A DNA stretch of 28,984 nt, from positions 1-28,984 of the IMG/VR virus record IMGVR_UViG_3300048919_000369; one strand, 5' to 3'. This DNA is from a virus. The notes under the pieces were generated by a model. The model made no database searches and was not told the origin of the DNA. It saw nothing but the letters and a program-made list of their open reading frames with translations. The translations under genes and the position numbers were made by a program. Positions 12,081 to 26,359 of the stretch are shown piece by piece (position 1 is the stretch's first letter; every line of letters starts with the position of its first letter).

Positions 12081-12119
12081 GGTGAGACCATGGCGCGAGA
12101 AGGATCAGGTTTCGCCGGG

Positions 12120-12151
12120 CTGCATTTGGACAGGCGCTTGTCCAAATGCAG
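12120..12151. promoter_or_regulatory. Palindromic late-gene box upstream of V
   Basis: A perfect 13-bp inverted repeat, CTGCATTTGGACA (12120-12132) and TGTCCAAATGCAG (12139-12151), has a 6-bp GGCGCT centre. It lies between the AbiTii gene stop and the V start, centred 55.5 bp before ATG 12080. The same core (CATTTGG, GGCGCT, CCAAATG) occurs at 26290-26315 between divergent O and P, with compensating base changes in both arms. Likely an Ogr-type activator site, although a bidirectional hairpin remains possible here. Confidence 0.65.
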
Positions 12152-12171
12152 GAACGCGACGGCTGCAAGCT

Positions 12172-13140
12172 TTAGCTTGGAATTCCCAAGTACGAATTTA
12201 AGGCTCCCGTCAGAGCTGCCTTCGCAACTTCAAGCGTCATTTCGCCGCCCTTTTTTGCGATTGATACCGCTGCTTTTGCGACCCACCCCTTCAACTTTGT
12301 CGGCAGAGCTTTCTCGGCTTTTGCAGCGCTTTCTTCCGTAGAAAGAAGGCCAGCCAGTTCTGTGACAGTAGGCGCCGCGACTCCCAGAGACTGCAATCGG
12401 TCCGAAAGTGAATTAAAGTCACCCTCGATGATGATCTGATTTTCAGCAACGTTGATTGAATTTCCCGCATAGCCCCCAATAGCTGCGGATCCACCGTTAA
12501 TTGTCGTGTGAAAGATCTGTGTGACGGCTGGCTTGATAGCTTCAACCTTACCTTCGGTAATGGCGGCATCCACGTCCACACCATCGCTTTCAAGCTCTAG
12601 TGCGAATTGAAGTAGTCTGGTCCTCACGGTATCGATAATTTCCACAAGCGAGGACATCGGTATTTCTTGCCATGCCCGGTTAAGCGCATATCCATCCAGA
12701 AACGAACTTTGGTATTTAACTACTAAATCCGCTGGCCAAGACATTGCAGCGAAGCCAGATGCATCTTTCGCGATCATGCCCTCATATGCGGCTACACCCT
12801 GTCCTGCATAAGCGGTCGTTGCCCACCAACGATGCTCCTCGCGCATGACAAAAGACGGTATCGGCTGATTCGCGATCTGCGCACCAAGCGGCCCCAAGAA
12901 GTGTCCCTTGGCCGTCACTTTTATGATGCGATAAGGAGGCAGATCATCGTTATCGATTCCTTTGTATCCTTGAAGTTCATTGGTCACCCATGACTTCAAT
13001 TCATCGTGCTTGAGGCGTGACGCCAAGATCAGGCACTTACGTAGGATGGTCGATAGGGGAACGGTGTGATCCGCAGCTTGGTCAATTATGGTTGAGAGCA
13101 CGAAATCTCTTTCATCAATTTCGGCCGCAGCGAACACCAT
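12172..13140 (-). CDS. AbiTii-domain abortive infection protein (defence cargo)
   Basis: A 322-residue protein. Residues about 27-80 (VPLSTILRKCLILASRL, ELKSWVTNELQGY, DDLPPYRIIKVTAKGHFLGP) match the AbiTii N-terminal domain pattern: LRK.L.LA..L....L..W...EL.GY......P.YR......G. The C-terminal half has a Gly/Asn-rich link (GGSAAIGGYAGNSINVAENQIII), then helical EGDFNSLSDRLQSLGV and a hydrophobic end. AbiTii proteins are tied to abortive-infection phage defence, but their mechanism is unclear. It lies alone between the methylase and V, is more AT-rich than its neighbours, and is bounded by hairpins on both sides: a typical cargo insertion in a P2-like phage. Confidence 0.78.
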   Translation of the reverse strand: MVFAAAEIDERDFVLSTIIDQAADHTVPLSTILRKCLILASRLKHDELKSWVTNELQGYKGIDNDDLPPYRIIKVTAKGHFLGPLGAQIANQPIPSFVMREEHRWWATTAYAGQGVAAYEGMIAKDASGFAAMSWPADLVVKYQSSFLDGYALNRAWQEIPMSSLVEIIDTVRTRLLQFALELESDGVDVDAAITEGKVEAIKPAVTQIFHTTINGGSAAIGGYAGNSINVAENQIIIEGDFNSLSDRLQSLGVAAPTVTELAGLLSTEESAAKAEKALPTKLKGWVAKAAVSIAKKGGEMTLEVAKAALTGALNSYLGIPS

Positions 13141-13150
13141 TGAGCTGTGC

Positions 13151-13176
13151 GATGCAAGTCACGCTAACCTTGCATC
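13151..13176. promoter_or_regulatory. Inverted repeat upstream of the AbiTii gene (operator candidate)
   Basis: GATGCAAG (13151-13158) and CTTGCATC (13169-13176) form a perfect 8-bp inverted repeat with a 10-bp spacer, one helical turn and a half between arm centres, ending 11 bp before ATG 13140. This geometry suits a dimeric repressor. A TTGATG (13180-13175, minus) overlapping one arm could be a -35 element, but no good -10 is evident. Confidence 0.45.
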
Positions 13177-13186
13177 AACTGTAGGG

Positions 13187-13221
13187 ATGCGCGCGCTTAG
13201 CGGAAAGCGTGGCGCGCGCAT
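13187..13221 (-). terminator. GC-rich stem-loop after the methylase gene
   Basis: ATGCGCGCGC (13187-13196) and GCGCGCGCAT (13212-13221) form a perfect 10-bp stem with a 15-nt loop that starts 7 bases after the methylase stop codon. It has no T-run, so it is not a classical intrinsic terminator, but its place directly after a stop suggests 3'-end formation or mRNA protection. Confidence 0.45.
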
Positions 13222-13227
13222 CGAGGT

Positions 13228-14046
13228 TCAATCGTCGTTGTCGGCCAGCTGGAAATTACTGATCAGCACTTCGCTTGCCGGGCGCGAACCGGCGCCGACG
13301 CTGTACGTCGTGTCGATCGGCGCCACGATGAAGCGCTCGAACGTCTCGCGCACACCCTCGTTGTCGTTGAGCGACATCAGGAACTTGCCCTTGATGCCCG
13401 CCAGCTGGTCTGCCAGCGCGGCGAAGTCTTCGCGGGTGAAGACGTCGGGGCCATAGTCCTTCTCGCAGGCCCAATAGGGCGGATCGAGATAGAACAGGGC
13501 GCCCTCACGGTCATAGCGGCGGATGAAGTCGCTGTAGGGCAGGCGCTCGATTACAACGGATTGCAGGCGGTCATGGATGTCGGCGAGCATCGGCTCGATC
13601 TTGCTGACATCGAAGCGGGCCGGACTGGATGCATCCACACCGAAGGTCCGGCCGGACACCTTGCCACCGAATGCCAGGCGCTGGAGGTAGAGGAAGCGCA
13701 CGGCGCGCTGCAGGTCGGTCAGCCGCTCGGGATCCTGACCAAGCAGGCGCGCGAACTCGGCTCTGCTGGTGACGCGGAAGCGCAGCATATCGACGAGGTA
13801 GGGATAGTGCTCGGTCAGGCAGCGAAACAGGCTAACCACGTCGCCGGAAATATCGTTGATCGCCTCGGCCTTCGGGCGCCGGGTTCGGCGCAGGAAGATG
13901 CCGCCCATGCCAACGAAAGGCTCAGCGTAACTGGAGTGCGGAGTGCGGTCGATGATGGCGCAGATGCGCTTGGAAAGGTTCCGTTTTCCGCCGATGTAAC
14001 CGGCCGGGGGAGAAACGGGGCGAACGAGAACAAAAGGGGTAGACAT
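13228..14046 (-). CDS. DNA adenine methylase, D12 class (Dam-like), orphan
   Basis: A 272-residue protein starts at ATG 14046 with AGGAT upstream. It carries the D12-class N6-adenine methyltransferase motifs in order: PPAGYIGGKRNL (13-24, SAM-binding variant), AEPFVGMGGIF (41-51, motif I) and LDPPYW (187-192, catalytic DPPY). Between them are the small target-recognition helices. This class methylates adenine, often in GATC. No restriction enzyme is adjacent, so it is an orphan phage methylase, probably modifying phage DNA against host restriction or altering regulation. It lies between the fibre chaperone region and the AbiTii gene, preceded by a hairpin-rich leader. Confidence 0.88.
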   Translation of the reverse strand: MSTPFVLVRPVSPPAGYIGGKRNLSKRICAIIDRTPHSSYAEPFVGMGGIFLRRTRRPKAEAINDISGDVVSLFRCLTEHYPYLVDMLRFRVTSRAEFARLLGQDPERLTDLQRAVRFLYLQRLAFGGKVSGRTFGVDASSPARFDVSKIEPMLADIHDRLQSVVIERLPYSDFIRRYDREGALFYLDPPYWACEKDYGPDVFTREDFAALADQLAGIKGKFLMSLNDNEGVRETFERFIVAPIDTTYSVGAGSRPASEVLISNFQLADNDD

Positions 14047-14220
14047 GTGATTGATCCTGCACGATTGCCCTTCCGCGCCTGAGACGCGGAAGGGTGCTCG
14101 AAGGGGCAGGCGTGCTGCCCGGAGAGTGCGAGTGCAGGCTCGCTGGTTTCGAGATGCGGGAACATCCGAGACCCCCTTCCGTAAAGGGGGAATTGGGCGG
14201 CGTGAAGTGCCGCCGATCAC
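14047..14220 (-). promoter_or_regulatory. Structured leader with four hairpins upstream of the methylase
   Basis: Four hairpins fill 123 bp: CCCCCTT/AAGGGGG (14172-14178, 14084+100 to 14190), GCGAG/CTCGC (14128-14132, 14139-14143), GGGCAG/CTGCCC (14104-14109, 14115-14120) and a perfect 10-bp CCCTTCCGCG/CGCGGAAGGG (14068-14077, 14085-14094) with a 7-nt loop. The first right arm is 14184-14190. No credible gene is present. The region may terminate the upstream message, attenuate methylase expression, or encode a small RNA. Confidence 0.5.
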
Positions 14221-14490
14221 TTACTCAGCAGTAGCGGAATCCGCGGCGTTTTCGACCGGCGCTTCCGGTTCCGGTGCAGGCACGGTGATGACGCCGAGGC
14301 CAATCTTGTGGGCGACGCCGAGCGCGACTTCATCCACGCGCGCTTTGGTCGCGGTCTTATCGTAGCTGCCATCAGCCTTGAGCGCGGCGTTCACCGTCCG
14401 CTCGTGCTTGATATCGCCGCTGGTGAAGGTCACCGGGACGTTGCGCAGGGTGCTGTCATAAGCACCGATCTTGATTTTCAGGTCAGACAT
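14221..14490 (-). CDS. Small acidic-tailed protein of unknown function
   Basis: An 89-residue protein starts at ATG 14490 with AAGGAA upstream, overlapping the chaperone gene by 8 bp. Residues 1-30 (SDLKIKIGAYDSTLRNVPVTFTSGDIKHERTVN) look like a beta-rich start; residues 48-66 are helical; the last 20 are Pro/Glu/Ala-rich. It is coupled to the tail fibre and chaperone genes, so it may be a minor virion or fibre-associated protein. I do not recognise a named family. P2 has no equivalent here. Confidence 0.65.
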   Translation of the reverse strand: MSDLKIKIGAYDSTLRNVPVTFTSGDIKHERTVNAALKADGSYDKTATKARVDEVALGVAHKIGLGVITVPAPEPEAPVENAADSATAE

Positions 14491-14881
14491 TCAGGTTCCT
14501 TTCGGCGGGGGCCACCGGCCAAACGACGGCGGCCAGATCAATGGTGGTTTCGGGAAGGTCGCGCAGCGCCTGGCGGTAGACGCACCAGGCGGCGCGCTGA
14601 TCGTCGGTCAGCGGGACATCCGCCATTTGCGAAAAGTCCGAGGCCCGCAGGCGCTTGTCGCGCTCCATCCGGATCAGCGCGAGCATCTCGTCTGAAGGCG
14701 GCACAGGAGCTTCCACCACAATCGGACCGCCATCGGGTCCGGTGACGATGCAGAGGCCTGCCTCCTGTGCGGCAAGAAGCGAGCGATGCAGGTCAGCGTC
14801 GATCGGGAGGACATCGGCCGGAAAGGCGGCGTGAAGCTCGCTGTCGTAGAAGGCGACAGCCGAGGGGCTGAAATAGATCAT
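14483..14881 (-). CDS. G: Tail fibre assembly chaperone (gpG-like)
   Basis: A 132-residue protein starts at ATG 14881, two bases after the fibre gene stop. IYFSPSAVAFYDSELHAAFPADVLPIDADLHRSLLAAQEAGLCIVTGPDGGPIVVEAP followed by a helical RDKRLRASDFSQMADVPLTDDQRAAWCVYRQALRDLP is the usual phage tail-fibre assembly pattern: an N-terminal YYS...gfy and a C-terminal W..YRQ.LRD. It helps the long fibre trimerise. Its immediate 3' position to the fibre gene supports this. It is shorter than P2 G (175). Confidence 0.88.
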   Translation of the reverse strand: MIYFSPSAVAFYDSELHAAFPADVLPIDADLHRSLLAAQEAGLCIVTGPDGGPIVVEAPVPPSDEMLALIRMERDKRLRASDFSQMADVPLTDDQRAAWCVYRQALRDLPETTIDLAAVVWPVAPAERNLNV

Positions 14882-14883
14882 GG

Positions 14884-17550
14884 TCAGACAGGTCCTACGG
14901 CGAAGTAGCGGCAGCCCACGCTGGCGATGCTGCAGCGCGCGGGGAATGACGATCCGGTAATGCCGTTGCTCGACCACGTGGAAACGTCGCTGGCGGTGGT
15001 CACAACCGCCATGGTCACCAGGGTGTACGGCTCTTCGGAAAAGGCGATCGGGAAGGTGACGGTAATTGCCTGTCCGGCAGTGGCGGGAGACGTCCAGCGC
15101 CCCCACTGCAGGACCAGGCCGTTCGACAGCCGCATGTAGCCGCTGGCAGACTTGCTCTCGGCAATGATGCGCAGATAGTCGGAGCCTTGCAGGCCATCGA
15201 GCGTGTCGGCGTCGAGGCCGGAGCCAGATCCATCGTTGGCCGCATCCCACACGACATTGCCCTGCCGGGTGAGCGGCATTGCGACGTTGAATGGCCCCGT
15301 CTGGCTTCCGACGCTCCACACGACGGCATCGCCGCTGCCGGCATTGCGATAGAACACGATGTTGCCGTCAGTCTGCGCAGAGAAGCGCGCAATGACCGCT
15401 CCGGTCGAATTGAGCGTGACGGAGGCGTTGCCGGAATAGTTGATCGTGACCGGGCCGGAGATGCCGCCGCCCGCGCTGCTGAACGGCGTGTAGCCGAGGC
15501 GGGCCGGGATATTGGCGTAGTAGCTGCCGTCCTGACCATCGAGCAGATCGGCATCGAGGCCGGACCCGGAGCCGTCGTTCCCGGAATGCCACAACTCATA
15601 GGCCACGGTGCCCATCGACCAGCCACCCACCTTCCAGCGGTTGTCGGTGTCGATGCCAAGAAAGCCCGCGAAGGCGTTCGGACGCTCGAACGACATGAGC
15701 GCAGGGCCGCCCTCGACCGTGGTGACATGCAGCGCGGTCGTGGTGCTTGGGCGAGAGGCCAGCGGGCTGGTGTCGGTGTTGCGATAGCGGATCGTCGCCG
15801 TCAGCGTGTCGCCCGCCCGGTTGATCGGGCTGTAGCCCAGGCGCGATGGAATATCGGTGTAGTAGCTGCCCTGCTGGCCATCGAGCAGATCGGCGTCCAG
15901 CCCGGAGCCGCTGCCATCGTTCCCGCCATGCCAGACAATCTGCCCGTTCACGGTGATGCCTGCGCGCGCCCACAGATAGCCGTCGGGGCCGCAGTAGGCT
16001 TGGACCGCACCGCCGATGTAGAGACTCAGCGTGTTCGTCGTGCGACCGAACTGGAAATAGTCATACCCGTCGAAGTTGATGATCGGATTGCCGTTCAGCA
16101 AATCGATGTAGAGATTATCGTCCCGCCTGATCGAGCCGGTGAAAGTGTCTCCGGCGCGGTTAGCAGGCGTGAAGCCGAGGCGCGCGGGAATATTGGCGTA
16201 GTAGGCGCCTTCCTGCCCGTCGAGCAGGTCGGCATCCATCCCTGAGCCTGCACCGTCATTCCCGGCGTTCCAGACCAGGCTGGAATTGAACAGCATGGAG
16301 GTATCGGAAATGACGAGGCGAGCCGCGCCGCCCACCATGAAGGTATGGCTGACGATCGCGCCGTTCGAGGTCCGGAAACCGTAGCCCAGGCGTCCCGGTT
16401 CGCTGGCGATTCCCACAGCGCCAAGCCAATGATTTCCGTTTGCATCCGCGCCGAGGTAAGAGCGGCCGTTCGTGTTCGTGAAGGAAGGGACCGTGACGGG
16501 GCCGGTAAAGGTGTCACCGGCGCGGTTCGCGGGCGTATACCCAAGCCGGGCCGGGATGTTCACGAAGTAGCTGCTGTCCTGCCCATCGAGCAGGTCCGCA
16601 TCCAGCCCAGAGCCGGAGCCGTCATTGCCCGAGTGCCACAGGTCGTAAGCCACCGCGCCCATCGACCATCCGCCGACCTTCCAGCGGTTATCGGTGTCAA
16701 CGCCGAGGTAAGCAGCGAAGGCGTTGGGGCGTTCGAACGACATGATCGCCGGGCCGGTGCCGTTGCCGATCGCGTGAAGCGCCGCGAGCGAGTTCGGACG
16801 GGTTGCGATCGACGCGCTATCGTTTGTCCGGAAGCTGATCGTGGCGGTCACGGTGTCGCCCGCGCGATTGATGGGCGTGTAGACCAGACGCGCGGGGATG
16901 TTCGTGTAGTAGCTGCCCTCCTGACCATCGAGTAGGTCGGCGTCGAGGCCAGATCCGGCCCCGTCATTGCCGGGATGCCAGATTGCGCTGTTGCCGGGGC
17001 CAAACCGCGCGTCGAGGCGGGTCGAAAGGGCATCAGCAAAAGCGCGAGGGGTTACGGCGCGCTCAGTATCGGTTCCGGTGTTCGTCTCGGTGCTGGTGGC
17101 AAGTTCGACCACGCCCTTGATCTCGGTGGTGGCAGGCGGGTTGAGGAAGTTCGTGTTGCCGAAGGTCAGTTGCGCGGCGGCGATGTCGGCGAACTGGACG
17201 TCGATCGCGAGCAGCATGATCGCCTGCGACGACTTTTCAAGGATCGGATCGGCCTGGCCGTAAATCGCGAACAGGGTGCCGTCGGCAAGGTAGAGCGCGA
17301 AGCTGCGCACGGTGTAAACTGACGTGCTTTCGTCGCGAACGATCAGGTGGATCGTGTCGTCAGCCACGACGTCGCCCGACAGGGTGGCGATGCGCTTGGT
17401 TTCGCCGGTCAGATTGGTGGCCGCAGGACTGGGCGCCACCGCGACGCCGGAGACGCCGACCTGCGCAATCGTGACGGCGGCGGTGCCGGTGTTGGCGGCA
17501 TTCACAAGCGCGGCGCGGCCCGCGTTGGTGACGGTGATGGTGAGGGCCAT
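14884..17550 (-). CDS. H: Tail fibre protein H with about 114-residue repeat modules
   Basis: An 888-residue protein starts at ATG 17550 with GGAG upstream. Residues 1-150 form the baseplate-attaching N-terminal domain (ALTITVTNAGRAALVNA, LYLADGTLFAIYG, LNPPATTEIKGVVELATSTE). Residues 165-190 match the short VTPRAFADAL fibre motif. From 190 to 795 there are six copies of a WHxGNDGxGSGLDADLLDGQ unit followed by YYxNIPARLGYTPxNRAGDT, spaced about 114 residues apart. Residues 800-888 (LSNGLVLQWGRWTS, VTFPIAFSEEPYTLV) form a receptor-binding or trimerising tip of the gp53/S-type fibre family. It recognises the host surface. The gene is followed by its chaperone. Confidence 0.9.
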   Translation of the reverse strand: MALTITVTNAGRAALVNAANTGTAAVTIAQVGVSGVAVAPSPAATNLTGETKRIATLSGDVVADDTIHLIVRDESTSVYTVRSFALYLADGTLFAIYGQADPILEKSSQAIMLLAIDVQFADIAAAQLTFGNTNFLNPPATTEIKGVVELATSTETNTGTDTERAVTPRAFADALSTRLDARFGPGNSAIWHPGNDGAGSGLDADLLDGQEGSYYTNIPARLVYTPINRAGDTVTATISFRTNDSASIATRPNSLAALHAIGNGTGPAIMSFERPNAFAAYLGVDTDNRWKVGGWSMGAVAYDLWHSGNDGSGSGLDADLLDGQDSSYFVNIPARLGYTPANRAGDTFTGPVTVPSFTNTNGRSYLGADANGNHWLGAVGIASEPGRLGYGFRTSNGAIVSHTFMVGGAARLVISDTSMLFNSSLVWNAGNDGAGSGMDADLLDGQEGAYYANIPARLGFTPANRAGDTFTGSIRRDDNLYIDLLNGNPIINFDGYDYFQFGRTTNTLSLYIGGAVQAYCGPDGYLWARAGITVNGQIVWHGGNDGSGSGLDADLLDGQQGSYYTDIPSRLGYSPINRAGDTLTATIRYRNTDTSPLASRPSTTTALHVTTVEGGPALMSFERPNAFAGFLGIDTDNRWKVGGWSMGTVAYELWHSGNDGSGSGLDADLLDGQDGSYYANIPARLGYTPFSSAGGGISGPVTINYSGNASVTLNSTGAVIARFSAQTDGNIVFYRNAGSGDAVVWSVGSQTGPFNVAMPLTRQGNVVWDAANDGSGSGLDADTLDGLQGSDYLRIIAESKSASGYMRLSNGLVLQWGRWTSPATAGQAITVTFPIAFSEEPYTLVTMAVVTTASDVSTWSSNGITGSSFPARCSIASVGCRYFAVGPV
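15166..16980 (-). repeat. Six-copy internal repeat in the tail fibre gene
   Basis: Copies start at 16980, 16638, 16272, 15933, 15591 and 15249 (descending, coding strand), each about 126 bp of strong similarity; the last is shorter. The spacing is about 340-366 bp. The blocks encoding residues 240-310 and 590-660 are also near copies of each other (SFERPNAFA, DTDNRWKVGGWSMG). This indicates tandem duplication with divergence and offers material for recombination in the fibre shaft. Confidence 0.85.
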
Positions 17551-17561
17551 GGGTGCTCCGG

Positions 17562-18113
17562 TCAGGCCGCCGGAGCCGAGCAGGACAGGCGGGCGAAGAG
17601 GGTGGGGCGGACAGTCGCGATGAGGCCGACGTCTGCGGCGGCGGTGATGCCTTGGGTGAAGGTGAAGTGGCTGCGCACCGGCTTGGCGCGGCTGACCTCG
17701 GCGATGACCTGATCGACGAAGGCGGCGCTGGCGGGCGCGCCCTTCTGTTCGAGGTTGAGCACGAGGTCGAAGGTGTGCGGAATGCCCTTCGGCTCCATCT
17801 GCCACCATTCGCGCAGGGCGACCGATCCGCCGAAGCTCTGGACCACCGCGCGCACGGATGCCGCCGTGCCCTTGCGCCGCGCGATCGGGATCGCCTGGCG
17901 GACGCGCTCGCGGCGGATCGCCTCGGGCCAGTCGGATGACCAGTTGTCGAGCGAGCGTTCCCACGCCAGCCACGGCAGGAACTGCAGCGGGCTGTCGTCG
18001 GCGGACTTCACCGCGCGGACGAGGATCGGGAGGTCGAGCATCTCCGAGCCGACCCGTTCGAGGGCCTTCTGCAATGCGGTGGAGCCGGGCGGCAGGAGCG
18101 AGGCGAAGGTCAT
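17562..18113 (-). CDS. I: Tail protein I, baseplate
   Basis: A 183-residue protein (P2 I is 176) starts at ATG 18113 in ATGA overlap with J. MTFASLLPPGSTALQKALERVGSEMLDLPILVRAVKSADDSPLQFLPWLAWERSLDNWSSDWPEAIRRERV is the conserved gpI pattern (LLPPgat...ALE.a...rl...pvpi...w.p..cP...LPwLAwe.svD.W...W). It joins J and the fibre H in the baseplate. The C-terminal residues are variable. It directly precedes H with an 11-bp gap. Confidence 0.93.
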   Translation of the reverse strand: MTFASLLPPGSTALQKALERVGSEMLDLPILVRAVKSADDSPLQFLPWLAWERSLDNWSSDWPEAIRRERVRQAIPIARRKGTAASVRAVVQSFGGSVALREWWQMEPKGIPHTFDLVLNLEQKGAPASAAFVDQVIAEVSRAKPVRSHFTFTQGITAAADVGLIATVRPTLFARLSCSAPAA

Positions 18114-19117
18114 TCGTCAACGCCCGCGTAGGTGACGTCAATCTTGGTGCAGTACGGGGCCTGCGTTCGCGAAATGATGATGTCGGCCGGGGGCTGGGTC
18201 AGCTGGACGTTCTGGACGCCTTCGACGTGCAGAGCGGCGTGGAGGCCGGACAGGGTGATATCGCGGCCGAGCCGGTGGCTCTCGTCGGTGTAGGCCTTGG
18301 CGCTGGCGAGCGCGGCGTCCATGACCACGCCGCCATCGGGGCCGGAAAACGTCTTAATCGTGCCCTCGACGGAGTAGGGTATGATCTGGGCAGACTGCGT
18401 GATGACATGGTCGGTCAGCGGGCGGATGTCCTCGCTGGACAGATACTCGCCGACATCCTCGATCAGATCTGCGCTTGCGGCGCCGCTATCAACCCGGGAC
18501 AGAAGCGAGACGATGACTTCGCCCGGCCAGATCGCGCCGTCGAGCGCGGTGGTCATCGCCGTCACCAGCGCATTGCTGGCCGCGTTGGCTTGCAGGACGC
18601 CCAGCACCAGCGCGCGGATGTCGTCCGGCGCGGGGCTGGTGGCGCTGGCATCGAGCACGTCGGGGTGAGCCGACAGTGCGTGGTAGATGTAGGCGCCCTC
18701 GGGACCGGCGACCGAATAGCCCTCGGGTGCCAGGACAATGCGGCGCCGGAATTCGGTGTCGCTCTCCATCACGGCCGGGATGCCGAGCACGTCGTCGGCG
18801 GGGGTGATGGTGCGGCGGACCACGCCGAAACCGGCGGCGAGGTTGTCGAGGTCATTCTCGACGGCGTAGGCGACCATGACCGCTCGGACGGCCTCGTTGA
18901 GGCGCTGCAGCAGCAGCTGGACCTCGTAGGCGAAGACCTGAAGCACACGGGTCGATGGGTTGCTTTCGCGGCCGTCGAAATCGACGCCTTCTTCCGCCAT
19001 CAGCGCTTTCATGCGCGCAAGCGCCCGCGCAAAGAGGGTCTCGAAATCGAGTTCCTCGACAGCGTCAGGCAGCGGAATGCGCGACAGGTCTACGGCGGTG
19101 AAGGTTGCATCGGCCAT
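18110..19117 (-). CDS. J: Baseplate assembly protein J
   Basis: A 335-residue protein starts at ATG 19117 (an in-frame ATG at 19126 is possible). It has the gp47/gpJ-type baseplate features: FTAVDLSRIPLPDAVEELDFETLFARALARMKAL, ESNPSTRVLQVFAYEVQLLLQRLNEAVRAVMVAYA, DNLAAGFGVVRRTITPADD, DTEFRRRIVLAPEGYSVAGPEGAYIYHAL. It builds the baseplate periphery. No Shine-Dalgarno precedes the start. A palindrome-like box at 19162-19187 is centred 57.5 bp upstream. Here J heads its own block, whereas in P2 it follows W. Confidence 0.92.
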   Translation of the reverse strand: MADATFTAVDLSRIPLPDAVEELDFETLFARALARMKALMAEEGVDFDGRESNPSTRVLQVFAYEVQLLLQRLNEAVRAVMVAYAVENDLDNLAAGFGVVRRTITPADDVLGIPAVMESDTEFRRRIVLAPEGYSVAGPEGAYIYHALSAHPDVLDASATSPAPDDIRALVLGVLQANAASNALVTAMTTALDGAIWPGEVIVSLLSRVDSGAASADLIEDVGEYLSSEDIRPLTDHVITQSAQIIPYSVEGTIKTFSGPDGGVVMDAALASAKAYTDESHRLGRDITLSGLHAALHVEGVQNVQLTQPPADIIISRTQAPYCTKIDVTYAGVDE

Positions 19118-19161
19118 GCCGCCCATGTCGCGGCAGGCAGGGGGGCAGCGCTACCGGGCTG

Positions 19162-19187
19162 CATTTGGTGGAGCCGCCGTACAAAAG
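19162..19187. promoter_or_regulatory. Degenerate late-gene box upstream of J
   Basis: CATTTGG (19162-19168), preceded by GGGCTG exactly as in the V box, is followed at the same 26-bp spacing by a weakened right half, TACAAAAG. The centre is 57.5 bp before ATG 19117. Symmetry is poor, so this would be a weaker site. Its placement matches the boxes before V and P. Confidence 0.5.
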
Positions 19188-19242
19188 CGCAATCTGCCGA
19201 GGCAGCAAGCTGCTCGGAGCTTCAAGTCAGCCTTAGCATCCA

Positions 19243-19530
19243 CTATGGCTTTTTGGACATGAGCTGATTGTAGCAAAAGGCAGTGTGTTCGGTGGTTTCA
19301 GGCCCAGAAGCGAGACACGAATCGAACTCGCTCGGGGGCTTTGGCCTAGCAAAGTAGGCCACGGCCAGGCAGAACACGATCCCGACCGCAAACTGTATTA
19401 CCCTCGCTGTCGGAAAGCTTGGAAGCTGTACGTCATCTTCTAGCGCCTCGAGTGCGCGTCCGTGTTGTGCTACAGTATAGATGCATGCGCCTGCAAAGAT
19501 GATCGCGAGGCAAATGAACAGAATGGTCAT
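19243..19530 (-). CDS. Small two-helix membrane protein, cargo gene
   Basis: Starting at ATG 19530, with AGGGGAG upstream, the protein has 95 residues. Residues 2-19 (TILFICLAIIFAGACIYT) and about 46-62 (VIQFAVGIVFCLAVAYF) form two membrane helices, with a charged loop between and a short Cys-containing tail. An ATG at 19560 would add ten residues but lacks a ribosome-binding site. It is inserted between S and J with a composition nearer 50 percent GC than its neighbours. Possibly a superinfection-exclusion or lysis-timing protein, but no family is recognised. Confidence 0.65.
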   Translation of the reverse strand: MTILFICLAIIFAGACIYTVAQHGRALEALEDDVQLPSFPTARVIQFAVGIVFCLAVAYFARPKPPSEFDSCLASGPETTEHTAFCYNQLMSKKP

Positions 19531-19602
19531 GAATACGCTCCCCTGAAGGGTCGCTGCCATAACCTTCGTTAAGACGCAAGATAACCGGTCTGATAGGGCA
19601 TG

Positions 19603-20271
19603 CTATGCTGCTGATAAATGATCGTACAGCGCATCGAGCAAAAGTTCTCTATCCGCTGCCGTCACCCCGAGTATTTCTCGCTTGGGGTAAGGCACGGCCT
19701 TCGCGCGCAGGGAGGGCTTGTCGCGCAGGCCGTACTGGTGGACGCTGGCGATTTGCGCGACTTTGCCGGTAAACCCGACCCAGATTCCCTGATTGTCTAC
19801 GCCGCTGCGCAGGAATCGCGCCGTTGCCAGGCGGCGGAACATCGCCCGGCGGCGGATGCGGGCGGGCCGCTTGCGCGCGCCGCTACCGCCGCGATGCTCC
19901 TCGGGCACCGGGAGCCACTTCACGATCTTGTCGCGCTCGAAAGAGCGGATGGCGCCAGCCTCGATGTCGAAGCCGGTCAGCATGTGCCCGCTGCCCCATG
20001 TGAAACTCTTCATCAGCACGCGGCGCGGTTCGCCGCCACCGCCCGCCGGGTAGAGGAAGCATGCCGGGCCGCGCCCCGGCTGCGCAGGCGTGCGCTCCCG
20101 GCGCGCTTCGAAGACGCTGCCGTCCGGCTGTTGCTGCGCGGCGATGCGGCGGCGCTGGCTGGCGGCGAGGTCGCGGCCCATGCGGCGCATCAGGCCGCGC
20201 TGCTCGGCCGCCGACAGGCTGCGCAGGAGAGCGCCAGCTACCCGTTCCAGTTCGGCGAGATCGTCGCTCAT
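19603..20271 (-). CDS. S: Tail completion protein S (virion morphogenesis)
   Basis: A 222-residue protein starts at ATG 20271, overlapping R as ATGA. MSDDLAELERVAGALLRSLSAAEQRGLMRRMGRDLAASQRRRIAAQQQPDGSVFEARRERT is the gpS/phage virion morphogenesis family start (a helical pair, then R.RI..Q..PDG..F..R). The C-terminus has VGFTGKVAQIASVHQYGLRDKPS and YPKREILGVTAADRELL. It finishes the tail head-proximal end. It is longer than P2 S (150), with an insertion of about 50 basic residues around 90-150. Confidence 0.9.
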   Translation of the reverse strand: MSDDLAELERVAGALLRSLSAAEQRGLMRRMGRDLAASQRRRIAAQQQPDGSVFEARRERTPAQPGRGPACFLYPAGGGGEPRRVLMKSFTWGSGHMLTGFDIEAGAIRSFERDKIVKWLPVPEEHRGGSGARKRPARIRRRAMFRRLATARFLRSGVDNQGIWVGFTGKVAQIASVHQYGLRDKPSLRAKAVPYPKREILGVTAADRELLLDALYDHLSAA

Positions 20272-20786
20272 GCGGTGGGCGGTACGGCAGGCGTGAGCAC
20301 GGCTTCGGGATCTTCGGTCTCGACCAGCAGGTCGGTATTGCCGAAGCCTTGCAGGAACGAGGCGTGGATACCCGCGAAGCTGTCGGGGAATCTGGGTTCG
20401 GGGATATGGTCGACGTCGTAGCCGCTGCCGTCCGGCCGGGGGATTACGAGCACCGGCTCGGTCAGGTCGATGGCGATCTCGATATCGAACTTCTCGGTGT
20501 CGAGCGGCTGCGCTTCGAAGCCGAAGGGCTTGCTGTCGGCGCGCTGCAGCAGCTGCGGCTGCTCCTTTTCTATCCATGCGAGGATCGGGACCATCAGCGT
20601 GTCCGGATCGGCGGCGAAGTCGAAGATCGTGACCTTGAGCGCGTAGCTGTAGGAGAACGACAGCGTCTTAGACCGGCGGGCGTTGATCTGGCCCGCGTCG
20701 ATGTAGATGCTGAGGTTCTCCGGGTTCTTCTTCAGGTCCGGCAGATAGGCCGTGAGCCAGCGGCGCAGGTCATTTGCCTTGCGCAT
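20268..20786 (-). CDS. R: Tail completion protein R
   Basis: A 172-residue protein starts at ATG 20786. MRKANDLRRWLTAYLPDLKKNPENLSIYIDAGQINARRSKTLSFSYSYALKVTIFDFAADPDTLMVPILAWIEKEQPQLL matches P2 gpR (K...LR..L....P.L..nPd.L.ifid.G.i.....gSLSFEy.Y.l.l...Df...d.l..pll.W...nQP.LL). It acts with S in tail completion. Its start overlaps the end of the Rz1-type gene, and its end overlaps S. Confidence 0.93.
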   Translation of the reverse strand: MRKANDLRRWLTAYLPDLKKNPENLSIYIDAGQINARRSKTLSFSYSYALKVTIFDFAADPDTLMVPILAWIEKEQPQLLQRADSKPFGFEAQPLDTEKFDIEIAIDLTEPVLVIPRPDGSGYDVDHIPEPRFPDSFAGIHASFLQGFGNTDLLVETEDPEAVLTPAVPPTA

Positions 20787-21084
20787 CGGTGCCTCCCGCG
20801 CTGGGCGTCAGCATGGTGCGGACCTGCCCCTGCAGTTCGATGAACGCGGCGCGGATCTGCCCGGCGACGTCGTACAGCGCGGTGAGGCTGGAATGCGCGT
20901 CGGCGCCGGTCATCTCGCCGGTGCTAGTGCGCTGGACTTTCGGCAGCGCCGGTGGCGGTGCCAGCAGGGCCGGGGACACTCTCGCCGTTGGCGATGGATG
21001 CGGCGCGGTCGAGCAGGCCGACACCGTCAGCATCAACGCAGACATTGCGATACACCGGCCGCTCAATGACCTTCTGGCTTTCAT
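20770..21084 (-). CDS. Outer-membrane spanin lipoprotein, Rz1-like
   Basis: A 104-residue protein starts at ATG 21084, inside the Rz-like gene in another frame. A signal peptide (about residues 1-24, with ALMLTVSAC) ends in the lipobox VSAC, and the next 25 residues are proline-rich (STAPHPSPTARVSPALLAPPPALP), typical of Rz1 o-spanins that fuse with the Rz protein to disrupt the outer membrane. The C-terminal 50 residues extend beyond the Rz stop and are helical (ALYDVAGQIRAAFIELQGQVRTML), longer than lambda Rz1. The mature lipoprotein would sit in the inner leaflet of the outer membrane. Confidence 0.82.
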   Translation of the reverse strand: MKARRSLSGRCIAMSALMLTVSACSTAPHPSPTARVSPALLAPPPALPKVQRTSTGEMTGADAHSSLTALYDVAGQIRAAFIELQGQVRTMLTPSAGGTDAQGK

Positions 21085-21322
21085 GGTAGATTTCCCTGAC
21101 GTTGGTCTGCCGGGCGTATTCGGCGGCCTGGCTGCGCTCGGTGGAGGCGTCGATCTGGCCTTGCAGCCGGTCGCGTTCGGCCCGCGCGGCATCGTCCGCA
21201 CGCTTCTGCGCGGCCTGTTCCTGTGCGCCGCCGACGCTGGTGCCGTAGAAGAAACCGCCGATGCCGGCAGCGCTCGCGGTGAGCGCCCCGGCAAGGACGA
21301 CGTGGGAGAGGCCGAGCGTCAC
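20924..21322 (-). CDS. Inner-membrane spanin, Rz-like
   Basis: A 132-residue protein starts at GTG 21322, overlapping the endolysin stop as GTGA. Residues about 5-30 (LSHVVLAGALTASAAGIGGFFYG) form one membrane anchor, followed by a long charged coiled-coil stretch (AQEQAAQKRADDAARAERDRLQGQIDASTERSQ) and VYRNVCVDADGVGLLDRA, a tail common in Rz-like proteins. It forms the periplasm-spanning complex with the embedded lipoprotein. A longer upstream reading in this frame is only an overlap with the endolysin. Confidence 0.82.
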   Translation of the reverse strand: MTLGLSHVVLAGALTASAAGIGGFFYGTSVGGAQEQAAQKRADDAARAERDRLQGQIDASTERSQAAEYARQTNVREIYHESQKVIERPVYRNVCVDADGVGLLDRAASIANGESVPGPAGTATGAAESPAH

Positions 21323-21891
21323 GCCCAGCGGCCCCGGATCAGCGCCGCCTGAATCTTGACCGCGATGTCGGCGATGTCGTCGGCGCGATCGGTGCCGTTG
21401 ATGATGCGGCGGTCCTGCACGAACTGCTCGCGGGTGCCGGTGTCGGAGACGTGGCGGCTGAGGCTGCGGCCGGTGAACGCGCCGTCTTCCATGCCCTCGA
21501 TGAGGATCCGCACCGACAGGTCGGGATCGAGGGCGAGGTCGAAATTCTTGAGCAGGGCGCCCTTGAGGCCGAGCGCCTTGTCCGCCCACTCGTAATTGCG
21601 GTCCCACGTCAGCTGGACGAGGCCGCGACCGTACTGCGGCTGACCATACTTGCCGGGTGCGGCGTAGGGCCTGCCCTTGCCGAGGCCCCATTCGCGCTGG
21701 GGCGTGAAGCGGGCTTCGTGCCAGGCGGTGGCAAGCGCATAGGCCAGCCAGCCTAACGGCCACGCGGCGGCGGATGCCAGAATCGCGTTGATGATGTTCA
21801 CCTGTTTCTGATCGAGGCCGCCGGTGATCGAGCGGAGCGAAGCGAAGAAGGCGGCAGGGTTGGCGAGCGCGCGGCGCAGGTTCACGGGCAT
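21319..21891 (-). CDS. Endolysin, GH19-type glycoside hydrolase
   Basis: A 190-residue protein. YALATAWHEARFTPQREWG (51-69) gives the GH19-like catalytic Glu59 and a second Glu67; YGQPQYGRGLVQLTWDRNYEWADKALGL is the conserved substrate-cleft stretch of chitinase-like phage lysozymes. It cuts peptidoglycan. No signal peptide is obvious, so it needs the holin. It replaces the P2 K gene at the same position. It overlaps the Rz-like gene by 4 bases. Confidence 0.88.
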   Translation of the reverse strand: MPVNLRRALANPAAFFASLRSITGGLDQKQVNIINAILASAAAWPLGWLAYALATAWHEARFTPQREWGLGKGRPYAAPGKYGQPQYGRGLVQLTWDRNYEWADKALGLKGALLKNFDLALDPDLSVRILIEGMEDGAFTGRSLSRHVSDTGTREQFVQDRRIINGTDRADDIADIAVKIQAALIRGRWA

Positions 21892-21895
21892 GGGG

Positions 21896-22228
21896 TCAGT
21901 CCTTCTTGGGGAGGAAGCGGTCGGCGAGGCGGGCCGGGAGGCTGGCGAGGGTATCGATCGCGGCCTTGGCCAGCTTGGGCGTGGCGTCGTAGGCGAGCAG
22001 GGCGATGCCGAAGCCGATCGACTGGGACACGAGGCCGCCCCATCCGGTCAGCGTGACGATGGCCAGCGTCGCGTAATAGCTGACCGTCGAACCGATCGCC
22101 CACTGGGCGAAGCGCTGGCGGTACGAGAGGCCGGGCTTCCATGCCTGAGCGACGGCCGAGCCGATCAGCGAGGGCGACAGCGAGCCGAGAAATTCAGCTG
22201 CGGCTTCGAAAATGGGGCGCAGTTCCAT
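21896..22228 (-). CDS. Putative holin
   Basis: A 110-residue protein immediately before the endolysin. It has amphipathic N-terminal and C-terminal ends and two likely membrane helices, about 45-65 (AIGSTVSYYATLAIVTLTGWGG) and 66-80 (LVSQSIGFGIALLAYDA). The C-terminus is basic (ARLADRFLPKKD), as in holins. The X-holin-endolysin order equals P2 X-Y-K. The sequence is not clearly P2 Y, so the assignment rests on topology and position. Confidence 0.72.
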   Translation of the reverse strand: MELRPIFEAAAEFLGSLSPSLIGSAVAQAWKPGLSYRQRFAQWAIGSTVSYYATLAIVTLTGWGGLVSQSIGFGIALLAYDATPKLAKAAIDTLASLPARLADRFLPKKD

Positions 22229-22231
22229 GTG

Positions 22232-22462
22232 TCAGCTCCAAAGCTGGATGAGGGGGAGCACGCGGTTCGCGCTGGTGGTGGCAGTGGCTGTTGCGGGGAT
22301 CAGGACGACGGTGCCGAGCGGCAGCACCTTCCCGCTGTCGGCAAGGCCGGGGTTGGCATCGAGCACGCGCGTCAGTTCGCCCGGTCCCAGCCCGGCTTCG
22401 CGCCAGAGCAGCTGGTCGAGCGTGTCGCCCTGTTTGGACCGGAGGCGCTGCGCGGCGGCCAT
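22232..22462 (-). CDS. X: Tail protein X
   Basis: A 76-residue protein with the gpX/LysM-like pattern: RSKQGDTLDQLLWREAGLGPGELTRVLDANPGLADSGKVLPLGTVVLIP. It is slightly longer than P2 X (67). It overlaps the stop of L by one base (TGATG). The role is in tail assembly, probably binding peptidoglycan or joining tail components. Confidence 0.92.
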   Translation of the reverse strand: MAAAQRLRSKQGDTLDQLLWREAGLGPGELTRVLDANPGLADSGKVLPLGTVVLIPATATATTSANRVLPLIQLWS

Positions 22463-22944
22463 CAGATCAGGTCCACCGTCGTTCGCGATACGCCGAGGAT
22501 GTCGCGCACGGCATGCAGGGCATCCCGGCGCAGTTCGCCGATCGAGGGCGTGAGATCGTCCGCCTGACTGCCGCCTGCGGTGGTCGTATCGAAGTCGCGG
22601 TAGCGCTCCACCAGTTCGGCCTTGGCGTAGAGGCTGACGGCGCGGTGATAGCGGATCAGCTGCTGGCTCTGGCCGTCCAGCTGCGGCGACGGCACATCGG
22701 CAAGCGTGGCGTACCCGGCGGCAATCGACCGCGCAGCGTAGGCGCGCAGGTCGTACTCCACCGACATAATGGCGCCGAGGATCGCTGCCCGCAGCCGGGG
22801 CGCAGTGATACTGCCCGAAATGCGGGCATCTGCGCGCACAGCTGCGAGTGCGATGTCGGGGAAGAAGCCGTCGTTGGCGATGACGCCTTCATCGGCGGGC
22901 GGATCCTCGATCGCATCGCACGGCGGGTTGGCGATGAAGGTCAT
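22462..22944 (-). CDS. L: Head completion/stabilisation protein L
   Basis: A 160-residue protein (P2 L is 169) starts at ATG 22944, overlapping the upstream membrane gene as ATGA. It has DEGVIANDGFFPDIALAAVRADARISGSITAPRLRAAILGAIMSVEYDLRAYAARSIAAGYATLADVPS and LIRYHRAVSLYAKAELVERYRDFDTTTAG, the gpL hallmarks. It closes filled heads at the connector. Confidence 0.93.
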   Translation of the reverse strand: MTFIANPPCDAIEDPPADEGVIANDGFFPDIALAAVRADARISGSITAPRLRAAILGAIMSVEYDLRAYAARSIAAGYATLADVPSPQLDGQSQQLIRYHRAVSLYAKAELVERYRDFDTTTAGGSQADDLTPSIGELRRDALHAVRDILGVSRTTVDLI

Positions 22945-23264
22945 GGCGCGATCAGGGCACTGTAACTGGCGAGACCAACTATCAGGGTGAGACGGCCGGT
23001 ATGATAGGCCGCGAAGGCCCAGAATGCGGCCCAAGCGAGCGCATAGGCGATGTAGAGCAGCAGCCCACTCTTGCCCGGCACTGCGCGGAACAACGTCACT
23101 TTCGACGCCTTCATCGCTTGGGCCAGCGCGGCACTCGGCTTGCCCAGCAGCAGTGCAATCCCCAGCGCGCAGGCCAGTCGATGGACCATCCTGCGGATGT
23201 TGTCGGCGAAGGTGACGGCGAAAGCGAGTGAGGCAACGAAAAGGACGATCGTGACGAGGCTCAT
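22941..23264 (-). CDS. Small multi-pass membrane protein inserted between M and L
   Basis: A 107-residue protein starts at ATG 23264 with GGAG 6 bases upstream. Three to four hydrophobic helices are visible: 1-18 (SLVTIVLFVASLAFAVTF), about 30-48 (ACALGIALLLGKPSAALA) and 68-105 (GLLLYIAYALAWAAFWAFAAYHTG and LTLIVGLASYSALIAP). It overlaps L as ATGA. P2 has nothing between M and L, so this is an insertion in a highly conserved head block. It may be an additional holin/antiholin or an exclusion protein. No family recognised. Confidence 0.68.
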   Translation of the reverse strand: MSLVTIVLFVASLAFAVTFADNIRRMVHRLACALGIALLLGKPSAALAQAMKASKVTLFRAVPGKSGLLLYIAYALAWAAFWAFAAYHTGRLTLIVGLASYSALIAP

Positions 23265-23383
23265 TGCAGGCTCCATTTCGGCCGCCCGGCTAACAGGGGT
23301 GGGGATCGGGTCAGCTGGCGGCCCTTCGGCTCGAAAGCCTCCCGCAGCGCGCGATCCGCCCCTGAGCGCCGGGGGCGAGCTTG

Positions 23384-24178
23384 TTACGCGGCAGGGTTGC
23401 CGCCGGTGTCTGTGGTGGACGCGGCGGCGCTGACAGCGGCCAGCAGCTTTTCCGCGCGCTTGACGCGGTCCTTCACGCCGATGCGATCGTGCAGGCGCTG
23501 GGCTTCGCGAAGGTTGATGAGGGCGCTTTCCAGAGGGGCCTGGCTGGATTCCGCTGGCGCGTCCTCGGCTTTGCGCAGCTGCTCGATGCCGATGGCCTTG
23601 AGCAGCTTGGCGCGAACCTGATCGTGGATGTCGAGGCCGATGGTGAGGTTATCGGCGGTGTCGAGCACGGACGGCGGGAAAGCCTTGCCGGTGTTCTGGA
23701 CCTTCAAGGCGGCGTCGGCGATCTCTTCGACGAGGATCGTCGCGACATCGCGCTCGTAGCGCTTGGGCATCGCCACATGGTGGCGCAGCAAGAATTCCCC
23801 GATGGCGAGGGCATCATCATAGGCACCGACGTCGATCGACCAGACCATGCAGGTGGGAACAACATCGGCGGCGATGCCGGTGCCGACGCCTGCATCGGCG
23901 CTCATCACGCCAACGACCCACGCGTTGTACTGCGGGAGCATCTCGCGCTTGGCTTCGATCTTGCGGTCGATCGACTTGATTTCCTTCAGGCGGCGCAGAT
24001 CGTGCGTCAGGCGCAGGGCGATCTCGGCGGCGGCCCGGTCGGCGGGCGTTGCCTTGCCCCCCGCTGCCGAAGGGAGGACGGCAGCGGGGGAGGCAACCGC
24101 CCCCGTGACAGGTGCGGTTGCTGCGATGATGGTCTGGGCAGCGAGTACGCGATCACGCTTAAGACGAGCGAGGCTCAT
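23384..24178 (-). CDS. M: Terminase small subunit M
   Basis: A 264-residue protein (P2 M is 247) starts at ATG 24178 with AGGATATC upstream. Key blocks are LRRLKEIKSIDRKIEAKREMLPQYNAWVVGVMSADAGVGTG, TCMVWSIDVGAYDDALAIGEFLLRHHVAMPKRYERDVATILVEEIADAAL and IHDQVRAKLLKAIGIEQL, all conserved in gpM, the DNA-recognition and cleavage partner of terminase P. An Ala-rich N-terminal linker (VTGAVASPAAVLPSAAGG) is extra. After the TAA the same frame stays open for another 40 codons. Confidence 0.93.
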   Translation of the reverse strand: MSLARLKRDRVLAAQTIIAATAPVTGAVASPAAVLPSAAGGKATPADRAAAEIALRLTHDLRRLKEIKSIDRKIEAKREMLPQYNAWVVGVMSADAGVGTGIAADVVPTCMVWSIDVGAYDDALAIGEFLLRHHVAMPKRYERDVATILVEEIADAALKVQNTGKAFPPSVLDTADNLTIGLDIHDQVRAKLLKAIGIEQLRKAEDAPAESSQAPLESALINLREAQRLHDRIGVKDRVKRAEKLLAAVSAAASTTDTGGNPAA

Positions 24179-24226
24179 GGTGATATCCTGTGACGGGAGC
24201 GGTTACGGGAGGGCGAAACCGGGCTA

Positions 24227-25324
24227 TCAGCCGGGCTTCTTGGCCATCTTGATGTTCTCGACGAGGGCGCAGCGGCCGTAGTCTTCCACTACGTAGTCCT
24301 CGTTGACGGACTCGTAGTTTTCGATCTGGTCGAGTGCCGGCTCATCCTTGAGCTGGCGGCGGCGGGTCTCTTCCTGAACGTAGATCGCGAGGTTATCGAG
24401 GCTGGTGATCAGCAGCGAATCCTCGGGGAAGAACGGCACGATGACAGCGCGCTTGCCTGCCAGCTGCTTGGGCAGCGTCAGGATGCGGTGCGCGGCTTCG
24501 CGTTCGGTCGCGGTATCACCGGCGGCCTGCAGCAGGTTCAGGTACTTGTCCTTGACCAGTGCCCAGCCCACGATGACGACGAGGTCGGTGTCGCTGCGGT
24601 TCCAGGGATCGAGCAGATCGAGCGCGTCGAAGGCGACCGCGTCGAGGTTCGCATAGTCGGCCTTGGCGGTGTCGGCGTTCGTGACCTCGCCGTCGATCAC
24701 TTCGACGATATCGACATCGGCAGCGACGTAGATCGCCTTGTCGGCGCCGTCCGTCAGGGCGCCGTCATCGAGCACGCGCTCGTCGGCATGGGTGCGGATC
24801 TTGTGCAGCCAGCCCTCGTTGACGTCCTGCAGAAGCGGATTGGCGGCGCGATCGGTGGTTGCGGCGGCCGAGGTGCCGTTGAAGCCGATCATGATGCGGT
24901 CGCGGCCCTGCTGTTTCAGGATCACGTCGCGCAGCAGCGTCTGGAAGTTCGGCTTGTGGCGCCACTGGTCGAGCTTGGCGTAGGGGATCGCGTGGTCGTA
25001 GTTGGTCTGGCGGCAGAAGTAGCCGCCGTCGTCGGTGGTGTCGGTCGGATCGCTGGGGGTGCGGCGCTCGCCGTTCTTGGTGTTGGTGCGCCCGGCCAGC
25101 GGGCGGGTGACGCCGACGCCGACCTTGTCGCCGGACTGTGCCACGACCGGCACCACGCTGACCTGCTGCAGGAATTCGCTCGATTCCTGGATCTTCTCTT
25201 CCAGCGTCTGTTCGACAGACGGGGCCACGCTGAACTTGGCAACGGTATCGGCTTCGTCGATGCCATTGAGTTCGGCAACGCGGGCGACGTACTTCTTGTA
25301 GGCTGCGCGGGTTTCTTTACGCAT
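24227..25324 (-). CDS. N: Major capsid protein N
   Basis: A 365-residue protein (P2 N is 357) starts at ATG 25324 with AGGAG upstream. RKETRAAYKKYVARVAELNGI, FSVAPSVEQTLEEKIQESSEFLQQVSVVPV, CRQTNYDHAIPYAKLDQWRHKPNFQTLLRDVILKQQGRDRIMIGFNG and VEDYGRCALVENI are the family blocks. The N-terminal part is removed by the O protease during head maturation in P2. It folds as an HK97-type capsid subunit. Confidence 0.95.
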   Translation of the reverse strand: MRKETRAAYKKYVARVAELNGIDEADTVAKFSVAPSVEQTLEEKIQESSEFLQQVSVVPVVAQSGDKVGVGVTRPLAGRTNTKNGERRTPSDPTDTTDDGGYFCRQTNYDHAIPYAKLDQWRHKPNFQTLLRDVILKQQGRDRIMIGFNGTSAAATTDRAANPLLQDVNEGWLHKIRTHADERVLDDGALTDGADKAIYVAADVDIVEVIDGEVTNADTAKADYANLDAVAFDALDLLDPWNRSDTDLVVIVGWALVKDKYLNLLQAAGDTATEREAAHRILTLPKQLAGKRAVIVPFFPEDSLLITSLDNLAIYVQEETRRRQLKDEPALDQIENYESVNEDYVVEDYGRCALVENIKMAKKPG

Positions 25325-25376
25325 TTGGGGTGCTCCTGAGAGGCGCGAGGGGCTTGGGCAGGTGGGGGCGGGCCGA

Positions 25377-26198
25377 TCAGCAGTCGGTCAGGAGCGCGGC
25401 ATCGCCGCCGCCGCCGGTTGCAGGGTCGCGACGGAAATTCTGCGGCTGTTCGGTGGATGCCAGCTGCGCTTCCAGCTTGTCGAAGCGGGCGCCGAGGGCG
25501 GCGACAGCGTCGTTCGACGGCTTGACGGCGGCGGCCACCTGCTCGCCCATCACGGCGGCGAAGCGTTCGATGTCGGGAGCGTTGTCGTTGGCGGGTGCCG
25601 GGGCTGGGGGCGGCGTGGCTGGTTCCTTGGGTTTCTCCGACTTGAAGAGCGTGGAGAACGCGGCGAGGAAGCCGGACTTGGTCGCTTCGGCGATAGTCGC
25701 ACCGTCGAGCGACGGCTCGATCTCAAGCTCGGTCTCGTAAGCCGAGGTGAAGAAGTTGGGGCGGGACTGGACGGCGAACTTCAGCGGTTCGGTGCCGAGC
25801 GATGCCGGGGTGTCGGTGATGGCGAGGCCGACGAGATAGCCTTTGCCTTCGCCTGCAAAATTGGGGTGAAGCTCGCAGCTGGTGTAGAGCTTCTGCCCCG
25901 CCTTGTTGAGCGCGACCAGCTGGTCGTTGGCTTCGATCTCGGCGACCAGGCTGAGCAGCTTCTTCGGCGCGCCGTTGATGGTAAGTTCCACCTCTTCGGT
26001 GCGCAGCGACAGCACGGTGCCGTAGGCATTGAAGGGCTTGTCCGGGCTGTACCCGGCGATGTGCTCGCAATTGATGCGCGCGGCATAGGTGGCGGGCGCG
26101 TAGCTGGCGGCAGCCTGTTCGAGCAGAGCGCGCTCGATGACGCGGCCATCGACGGTGGGGCCTTCGACGGCGACGCGGAAAAACTTGCTCTTGGCCAT
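25377..26198 (-). CDS. O: Capsid scaffold and maturation protease O
   Basis: A 273-residue protein starts at ATG 26198 with AAGGAA upstream. The N-terminal serine protease has candidate catalytic residues Asp17 (TVDGR), His46 (NCEHIAGYSP) and Ser107 (YTSCEL), matching the P2 gpO triad (Asp19, His48, Ser107). Residues 130-215 link to a Pro-rich segment, and the last 60 residues (ERFAAVMGEQVAAAVKPS, FDKLEAQLAST) form the helical scaffold that shapes the procapsid. It heads the O-S late operon, divergent from P. Confidence 0.94.
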   Translation of the reverse strand: MAKSKFFRVAVEGPTVDGRVIERALLEQAAASYAPATYAARINCEHIAGYSPDKPFNAYGTVLSLRTEEVELTINGAPKKLLSLVAEIEANDQLVALNKAGQKLYTSCELHPNFAGEGKGYLVGLAITDTPASLGTEPLKFAVQSRPNFFTSAYETELEIEPSLDGATIAEATKSGFLAAFSTLFKSEKPKEPATPPPAPAPANDNAPDIERFAAVMGEQVAAAVKPSNDAVAALGARFDKLEAQLASTEQPQNFRRDPATGGGGDAALLTDC

Positions 26199-26287
26199 GA
26201 TCGGTCCGGTTCCTTGAGGGTGCGGCGGGTTCGGCAGCGGTGTTGACCCGGCCAAAAGGACCGCTGCGGCGCATCTTCTCAAGGGCA

Positions 26288-26317
26288 TCCATTTGGTCTG
26301 GCGCTGGACCAAATGGA
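26288..26317. promoter_or_regulatory. Palindromic late-gene box between divergent O and P
   Basis: TCCATTTGGTC (26288-26298) and GACCAAATGGA (26307-26317) form a perfect 11-bp inverted repeat with an 8-bp centre containing GGCGCT. The core matches the V box in both arms and centre. Lying between divergent genes it cannot be a terminator for either. The centre is 57.5 bp before ATG 26360 of P and about 104 bp before O. This is where P2 has its PO and PP late promoters. Confidence 0.68.
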
Positions 26318-26359
26318 CAGCGGTGATTGACGGCAAAAACGCGGCGCATGGTCGCCGTC

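Follow-up and report, generated by a model that had tools for sequence, protein, structure and literature searches.

What reads the three palindromic boxes that stand before the late genes of this P2-like phage record, and where would the late transcripts begin? We analysed the whole stretch of 28,984 nucleotides (hereafter the window), in which the portal and terminase genes occupy the plus strand at the right end. The minus strand carries, in this order, the scaffold (O), capsid (N), terminase small subunit (M), L, lysis and R genes, then J and the tail fibre genes, followed by V, W, sheath (FI), tape measure, U and D. The initial annotation had placed the boxes before V, before J and between the divergent genes O and P, and had proposed them as operators of an Ogr-like protein.

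Palindromic boxes in the window

A pattern scan of the window found CATTTGG-N12-CCAAATG with 0 mismatches at operators 1 and 3 and a copy with 2 mismatches, CATTTGG-TGGAGCCGCCGT-ACAAAAG, at operator 2 (Table 1). These were the sole matches at ≤3 mismatches with 7-bp arms; shuffled windows gave a mean of 0.71 matches to this loose pattern, and the pattern of arms plus centre appeared in 0 of 100 shuffles. Under a model of the window's own arms, the boxes scored 35.5, 34.0 and 26.1 bits, against 8.4 bits for the next-best place. The scan, the shuffles and the bit scores thus confirmed three palindromic boxes where they had been described. The degenerate arm of the J box is the promoter-distal one, and this box is better preserved in L200 and L242, the nearest relatives of the window phage.

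The finer description of the motif held in part. The CATTTGG and CCAAATG arms and their 12-base spacing stood, whereas GGCGCT, which had been counted as a motif element, is missing from the J copy and variable in the relatives. The inner arm bases of the two good copies (ACA/TGT vs TCT/GGA) had been said to differ yet stay paired; in the O/P copy this is correct for the T-A and C-G pairs and incorrect for the third, T-G, which is unpaired.

Table 1. Boxes, promoter-like elements and genes of the window
Feature	Position	Strand	Remarks
Ogr-like late activator, proposed operator binder	1410-1712	-	Pfam Ogr_Delta; CX2CX22CX5C
Gene V, first of V-W-FI...D operon	11526-12080	-	Leaderless mRNA predicted
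CATGGTC at -10 position, V promoter	12086-12092	-	Conserved, not in frame with V; putative function
Late operator 1 (candidate), upstream of V	12123-12148	.	CATTTGGACAGGCGCTTGTCCAAATG; dyad centre 12135.5, 55.5 nt from V start codon
Gene J, first of J...G operon	18110-19117	-	Start corrected from 19126 (probable)
CATGGGC at -10 position, J promoter	19121-19127	-	Conserved; putative function
Late operator 2 (candidate), upstream of J	19162-19187	.	CATTTGGTGGAGCCGCCGTACAAAAG, one arm degenerate; dyad centre 19174.5, 57.5 nt from in-frame J start 19117
Gene O, first of head and lysis operon	25377-26198	-	Leader and AAGGAACC ribosome-binding-like site
TTGAGA, -35-like element of O promoter	26277-26282	-	Conserved; ~23 nt from dyad centre; putative function
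Late operator 3 (candidate), common to divergent O and P	26290-26315	.	CATTTGGTCTGGCGCTGGACCAAATG; dyad centre 26302.5, 57.5 nt to P ATG (26360), ~104 nt to O ATG (26198)
CATGGTC at -10 position, P promoter	26347-26353	+	Conserved; putative function
Gene P, terminase large subunit, first of P-Q operon	26360-28213	+	Leaderless or nearly so, predicted

Conservation of the boxes in related prophages

The closest relatives are prophages of Novosphingobium, Sphingobium, Sphingomonas and Sphingopyxis. We took the O/P side for ~160 related loci and the tail and regulatory half for 42 of them; in all of these 42 sphingomonad P2-like prophages, the V, J, O and P genes were then located. A loose pattern scan of viral contigs, which returned scattered matches, was dropped, and this homology-guided comparison was used instead. 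Nearly all of the 42 relatives carry a palindrome at the same three positions, so the check proposed for the boxes, their retention upstream of V, J and O/P in such prophages, came out in their favour. The relatives did not show random or intragenic copies as a rule, extra in-gene sites being no general feature.

The three copies agree inside one phage and differ between phages, where we found the half-box types CATTTGG, CATTTCG, CATATGG, CATCGGG, CATTGGTA, CTTGTGTA, CTTGTAGAA, CTTGTGGGA, CAATCGTAGAG and CTTGTGAAA. The arm spacing also differs among relatives, giving even or odd palindromes, and TGT-N12 to N14-ACA is present in many of them. In a comparison that assumed no palindrome, we scored the best ungapped 26-mer matches among the V, J and P regions: regions of one phage averaged 22.8-23.5, regions of different phages 16.3-16.5 and shuffled sequences 15.3-15.6. 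L245 and L213 were the weakest cases. Short repeats are common in phage genomes, and the boxes could on that ground be chance palindromes or mobile repeats. This account, already at odds with the absence of the full pattern from the shuffles, is refuted by the conserved placing of the boxes in 42 phages, which come from several genera of sphingomonads, and we give it practically no weight.

About eight relatives (L289, L288, L291, L284, L281, L304, L303 and L310) carry a fourth box of their own type, degenerate in one arm, ~0.9-1.3 kb beyond ogr. The fourth copy of L212 and L239 lies ~61 nt upstream of a gene without assigned function, and the gene after the copy in L239 has a weak YdaS-like match (E 0.005).

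Promoter geometry and predicted transcript starts

Across the window and its relatives, the dyad centre lies 55.5-63 nt from the start codon of V, 56-60.5 nt from that of J and 56.5-62 nt from that of P (SD 1.2-1.9), the J distance being counted to the second in-frame ATG (19117 in the window). The distance to the O start is ~104 nt. V, J and P have no Shine-Dalgarno-like sequence and O has one (p ~1e-14), with median duplex energies of -2.7 for V, -2.0 for J, -3.9 for P and -5.7 for O. CATGGTC-like elements recur ~+44 to +54 from the centre for V, P and J, and CTTGAG, the O element in most relatives, at ~+20 to +26. The J element at the -10 position overlaps the upstream in-frame ATG in many relatives. 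J therefore probably begins at 19117, the second in-frame ATG, and not at 19126, where the first ATG falls on a conserved promoter-like element.

These distances are most simply read as the geometry of P2, the V, J and P transcripts being leaderless, with predicted start sites that would fall at the start codon or a few bases from it; the O transcript would instead have a leader with a ribosome-binding site. In the window, the predicted starts are 12080 (V), ~19119 (J), ~26247 (O) and ~26358 (P). Such starts bear on a second account of the boxes, as RNA hairpins (terminators, attenuators or elements of translational control) or DNA structural sites. The boxes do form perfect inverted repeats with loops of 6-8 bases. 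However, starts ~55 nt downstream would leave them untranscribed in their own operons, and terminators are not required to be shared within a phage and changed between phages. Moreover, one copy serves divergent genes, the ground on which the initial annotation had rejected a terminator, and no T-run follows the boxes. We regard a hairpin or structural role as highly improbable.

The Ogr-like protein and its co-variation with the boxes

The product of the Ogr-like gene matched Ogr_Delta (PF04606) with 53.5 bits, against a curated cut-off of 26.3. Its cysteine motif, CX2CX22CX5C, departs from the canonical CX2CX22CX4C by one extra residue in the last loop and is found in the window and in 16 relatives with CAT-type boxes (17 phages), with all four cysteines kept. 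The motif of P2 Ogr has the canonical CX4C ending (PMC3931495). In phages with a CX4C Ogr, the boxes mostly contain TTGT, CTGT, GTGT or CGT; L231, with a CX5C Ogr and a TTGT box, is an exception. We read both the cysteine class and the box type from the alignment, having rejected an automatic table in which flanking bases misfiled several phages. An AlphaFold model of the protein gave a confident three-strand core (pLDDT >90 for residues 11-70, block means) and a disordered tail. A structure search against the PDB returned no match at E <0.001, and a sequence search found no solved Ogr structure. Upstream of ogr lie two small minus-strand genes (1715-2203 and 2200-2502), of which one matches phrog_38866, a family without assigned function, and the other has a weak match to a Cro/YdaS-like helix-turn-helix.

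We compared operator distance with the distances of 13 proteins in 33 non-redundant phages, Ogr being the one early-region protein in the set. In these Mantel tests, which do not fully remove shared ancestry, Ogr distance was the best predictor of operator distance (r=0.51, the highest of the 13), followed by V, U, L, R and FI (r=0.39-0.41); P (0.23), O (0.17) and N (0.08) were lower. Once Ogr was controlled for, P, O and J added nothing (p 0.72, 0.56 and 0.40, respectively), and the tail or lysis genes U, L and R kept a small residual of 0.12-0.19. Conversely, Ogr kept r=0.36-0.49 (p=0.001) when any of the seven genes tested in this way was held constant. Ogr was the best predictor even for the O/P site, which the O and P sequences do not predict, and this is a strong control because O and P directly flank that box.

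Natural swaps provide a cleaner argument, since the Mantel tests under-correct for ancestry. The P proteins of L233 and L207 are 82% identical to that of the window and the O proteins 69% and 60%, respectively, whereas their Ogr proteins, of the CX4C type, are 34% and 37% identical; all three boxes in both phages, the O/P one included, are of the TTGT type. Where Ogr was swapped, the box that lies between the conserved O and P genes was swapped as well. The operator half-site and Ogr have changed together in each related phage.

The boxes might instead be operators of another regulator (an immunity repressor, a Cox-like or other early protein) that silences the late operons in the lysogen. Repressors do typically bind long perfect palindromes, and some relatives have the degenerate fourth copy in the early region before a gene without assigned function. 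That copy, however, is absent from the window and from most phages. The box type tracks Ogr better than it tracks the 12 other proteins compared, and the distance to the start is that of P2 activator sites, far upstream of the position from which a simple repressor would block. We consider another regulator unlikely by a wide margin.

The within-phage co-variation and the rank of Ogr among the 13 proteins thus support the proposal that the boxes are candidate Ogr operators. Very probably, they are the operators of the late regulon, read by an Ogr-like dimer that would activate P(V), P(J), P(O) and P(P). In the proposed mechanism, the zinc-ribbon protein would bind as a dimer to the two 7-bp arms (core TTTGG-N12-CCAAA) and, centred ~55 bp upstream of the start, would recruit RNA polymerase through a presumed contact. 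It would thereby serve four late promoters, with the divergent P(O) and P(P) on one common site.

Comparison with known systems

The arrangement has a close counterpart in P2, which also has an Ogr-family zinc finger and one site common to divergent pO and pP. In the P2 record (AF063097), the activator site at 3057-3087 serves pO and pP, with starts at 3127 and 3016, ~55 either side; another activator site lies at 10239-10266, and the V start (10308) is the V start codon. Counted on the P2 sequence, 57 nt separate the ATG from the centre of the V dyad TTGT-N11-ACAA, and the dyad-to-start-codon spacing of the window and its relatives matches that of P2 V, P2 sites being centred ~55 nt upstream of starts. 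Unlike P2, the window has a TTTGG half-site and an Ogr finger that ends in CX5C; its J has its own site and its V is joined with FI...D, whereas P2 groups V-W-J-I-H-G and has a site apart for FI. A sequence unlike that of P2 had been claimed for the boxes, and a pattern search for TGT-N12-ACA indeed gave 0 matches in the window; yet the 12-base spacing of the published consensus and its TG/CA ends are both retained in TGG-N12-CCA, which qualifies the claim. Since the sites of P2 itself fall far short of the window boxes in symmetry, this spacing match is to the published consensus and not to a clean P2 sequence.

Stenotrophomonas phage Smp131 (PMC3931495) shares the operon plan, with PP' and PO' on one dyad in addition to PJ' and PV', but its dyads fit TGT-N12-ACA and its Ogr is of the CX4C type. 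The portion of the report on Ralstonia phages phiRSY1 and phiRSA1 that we drew on (PMC5694545) describes four late promoter regions with one dyad type, as proposed for the window. That dyad is longer (TGTTGT-N13-ACAACA, -50 to -90 from start codons) and has a different half-site; the same portion does not set variants of Ogr against the dyads that go with them in related phages. Given these precedents, the kind of system is already known; the sites of the window have an ordinary function, and it is their sequence that is new. What is new is the TGG-N12-CCA half-site, the CX5C finger and the family of matched activator-operator pairs, for none of which did a non-exhaustive search of the open-access literature find an earlier report.

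Possible operator specificities across the phage family

The part deserving follow-up is the co-variation across the phage family. The satellite activators P4 Delta and phiR73 Delta, like PSP3 Ogr, belong to the Ogr/Delta family, whose members are known to differ in promoter specificity. Ogr is a very small activator. The sphingomonad P2-like phages offer ~40 pairs of protein and operator made by nature, every pair with three operators, and the half-site has switched several times, in some cases between phages with nearly the same flanking genes; with such pairs and switches at hand, the recognition code of the Ogr family is directly testable. A further prediction is that many sphingomonad prophages not yet studied each have four late promoters, with three of the four late mRNAs leaderless.

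More tentatively, the sphingomonad P2-like phages may hold at least 10 distinct co-evolved Ogr-operator specificities, which would insulate co-resident prophages (and any satellites) from cross-activation, with leaderless mRNAs at three of four late promoters and with residues beside the first Ogr cysteine pair setting the half-site. Taken whole, this proposal is plausible, though we lean slightly against it. Its last element comes from L123 and L204, in which a change from TTTGG to TTTCG in the box accompanies a change of Arg22 (window numbering) to Gln; residue 22 is Arg or Lys in the other CAT-type phages. Because L123 and L204 represent one evolutionary event, we offer this reading only as a hypothesis, and column-wise covariation within Ogr served as an exploratory analysis. 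Among 401 genomes searched for CATTTCG boxes, nine had a match (of these, G005 was tied to a phage), and they gave no second independent Arg22-Gln case. L209, which has a CATTTCG box, carries three Ogr candidates with Arg at position 22, among which the cognate ogr was not singled out, and this case counts neither for nor against the reading.

Defence-type cargo is present in a late operon of the window: the J operon ends with an AbiTii-family gene (12172-13140, minus strand; PF18864, 136 bits) and a DNA methyltransferase gene (13228-14220, minus strand). Between D and ogr, a DUF2939 gene (3220-3849, plus strand; 90 bits) runs against the direction of most late genes.
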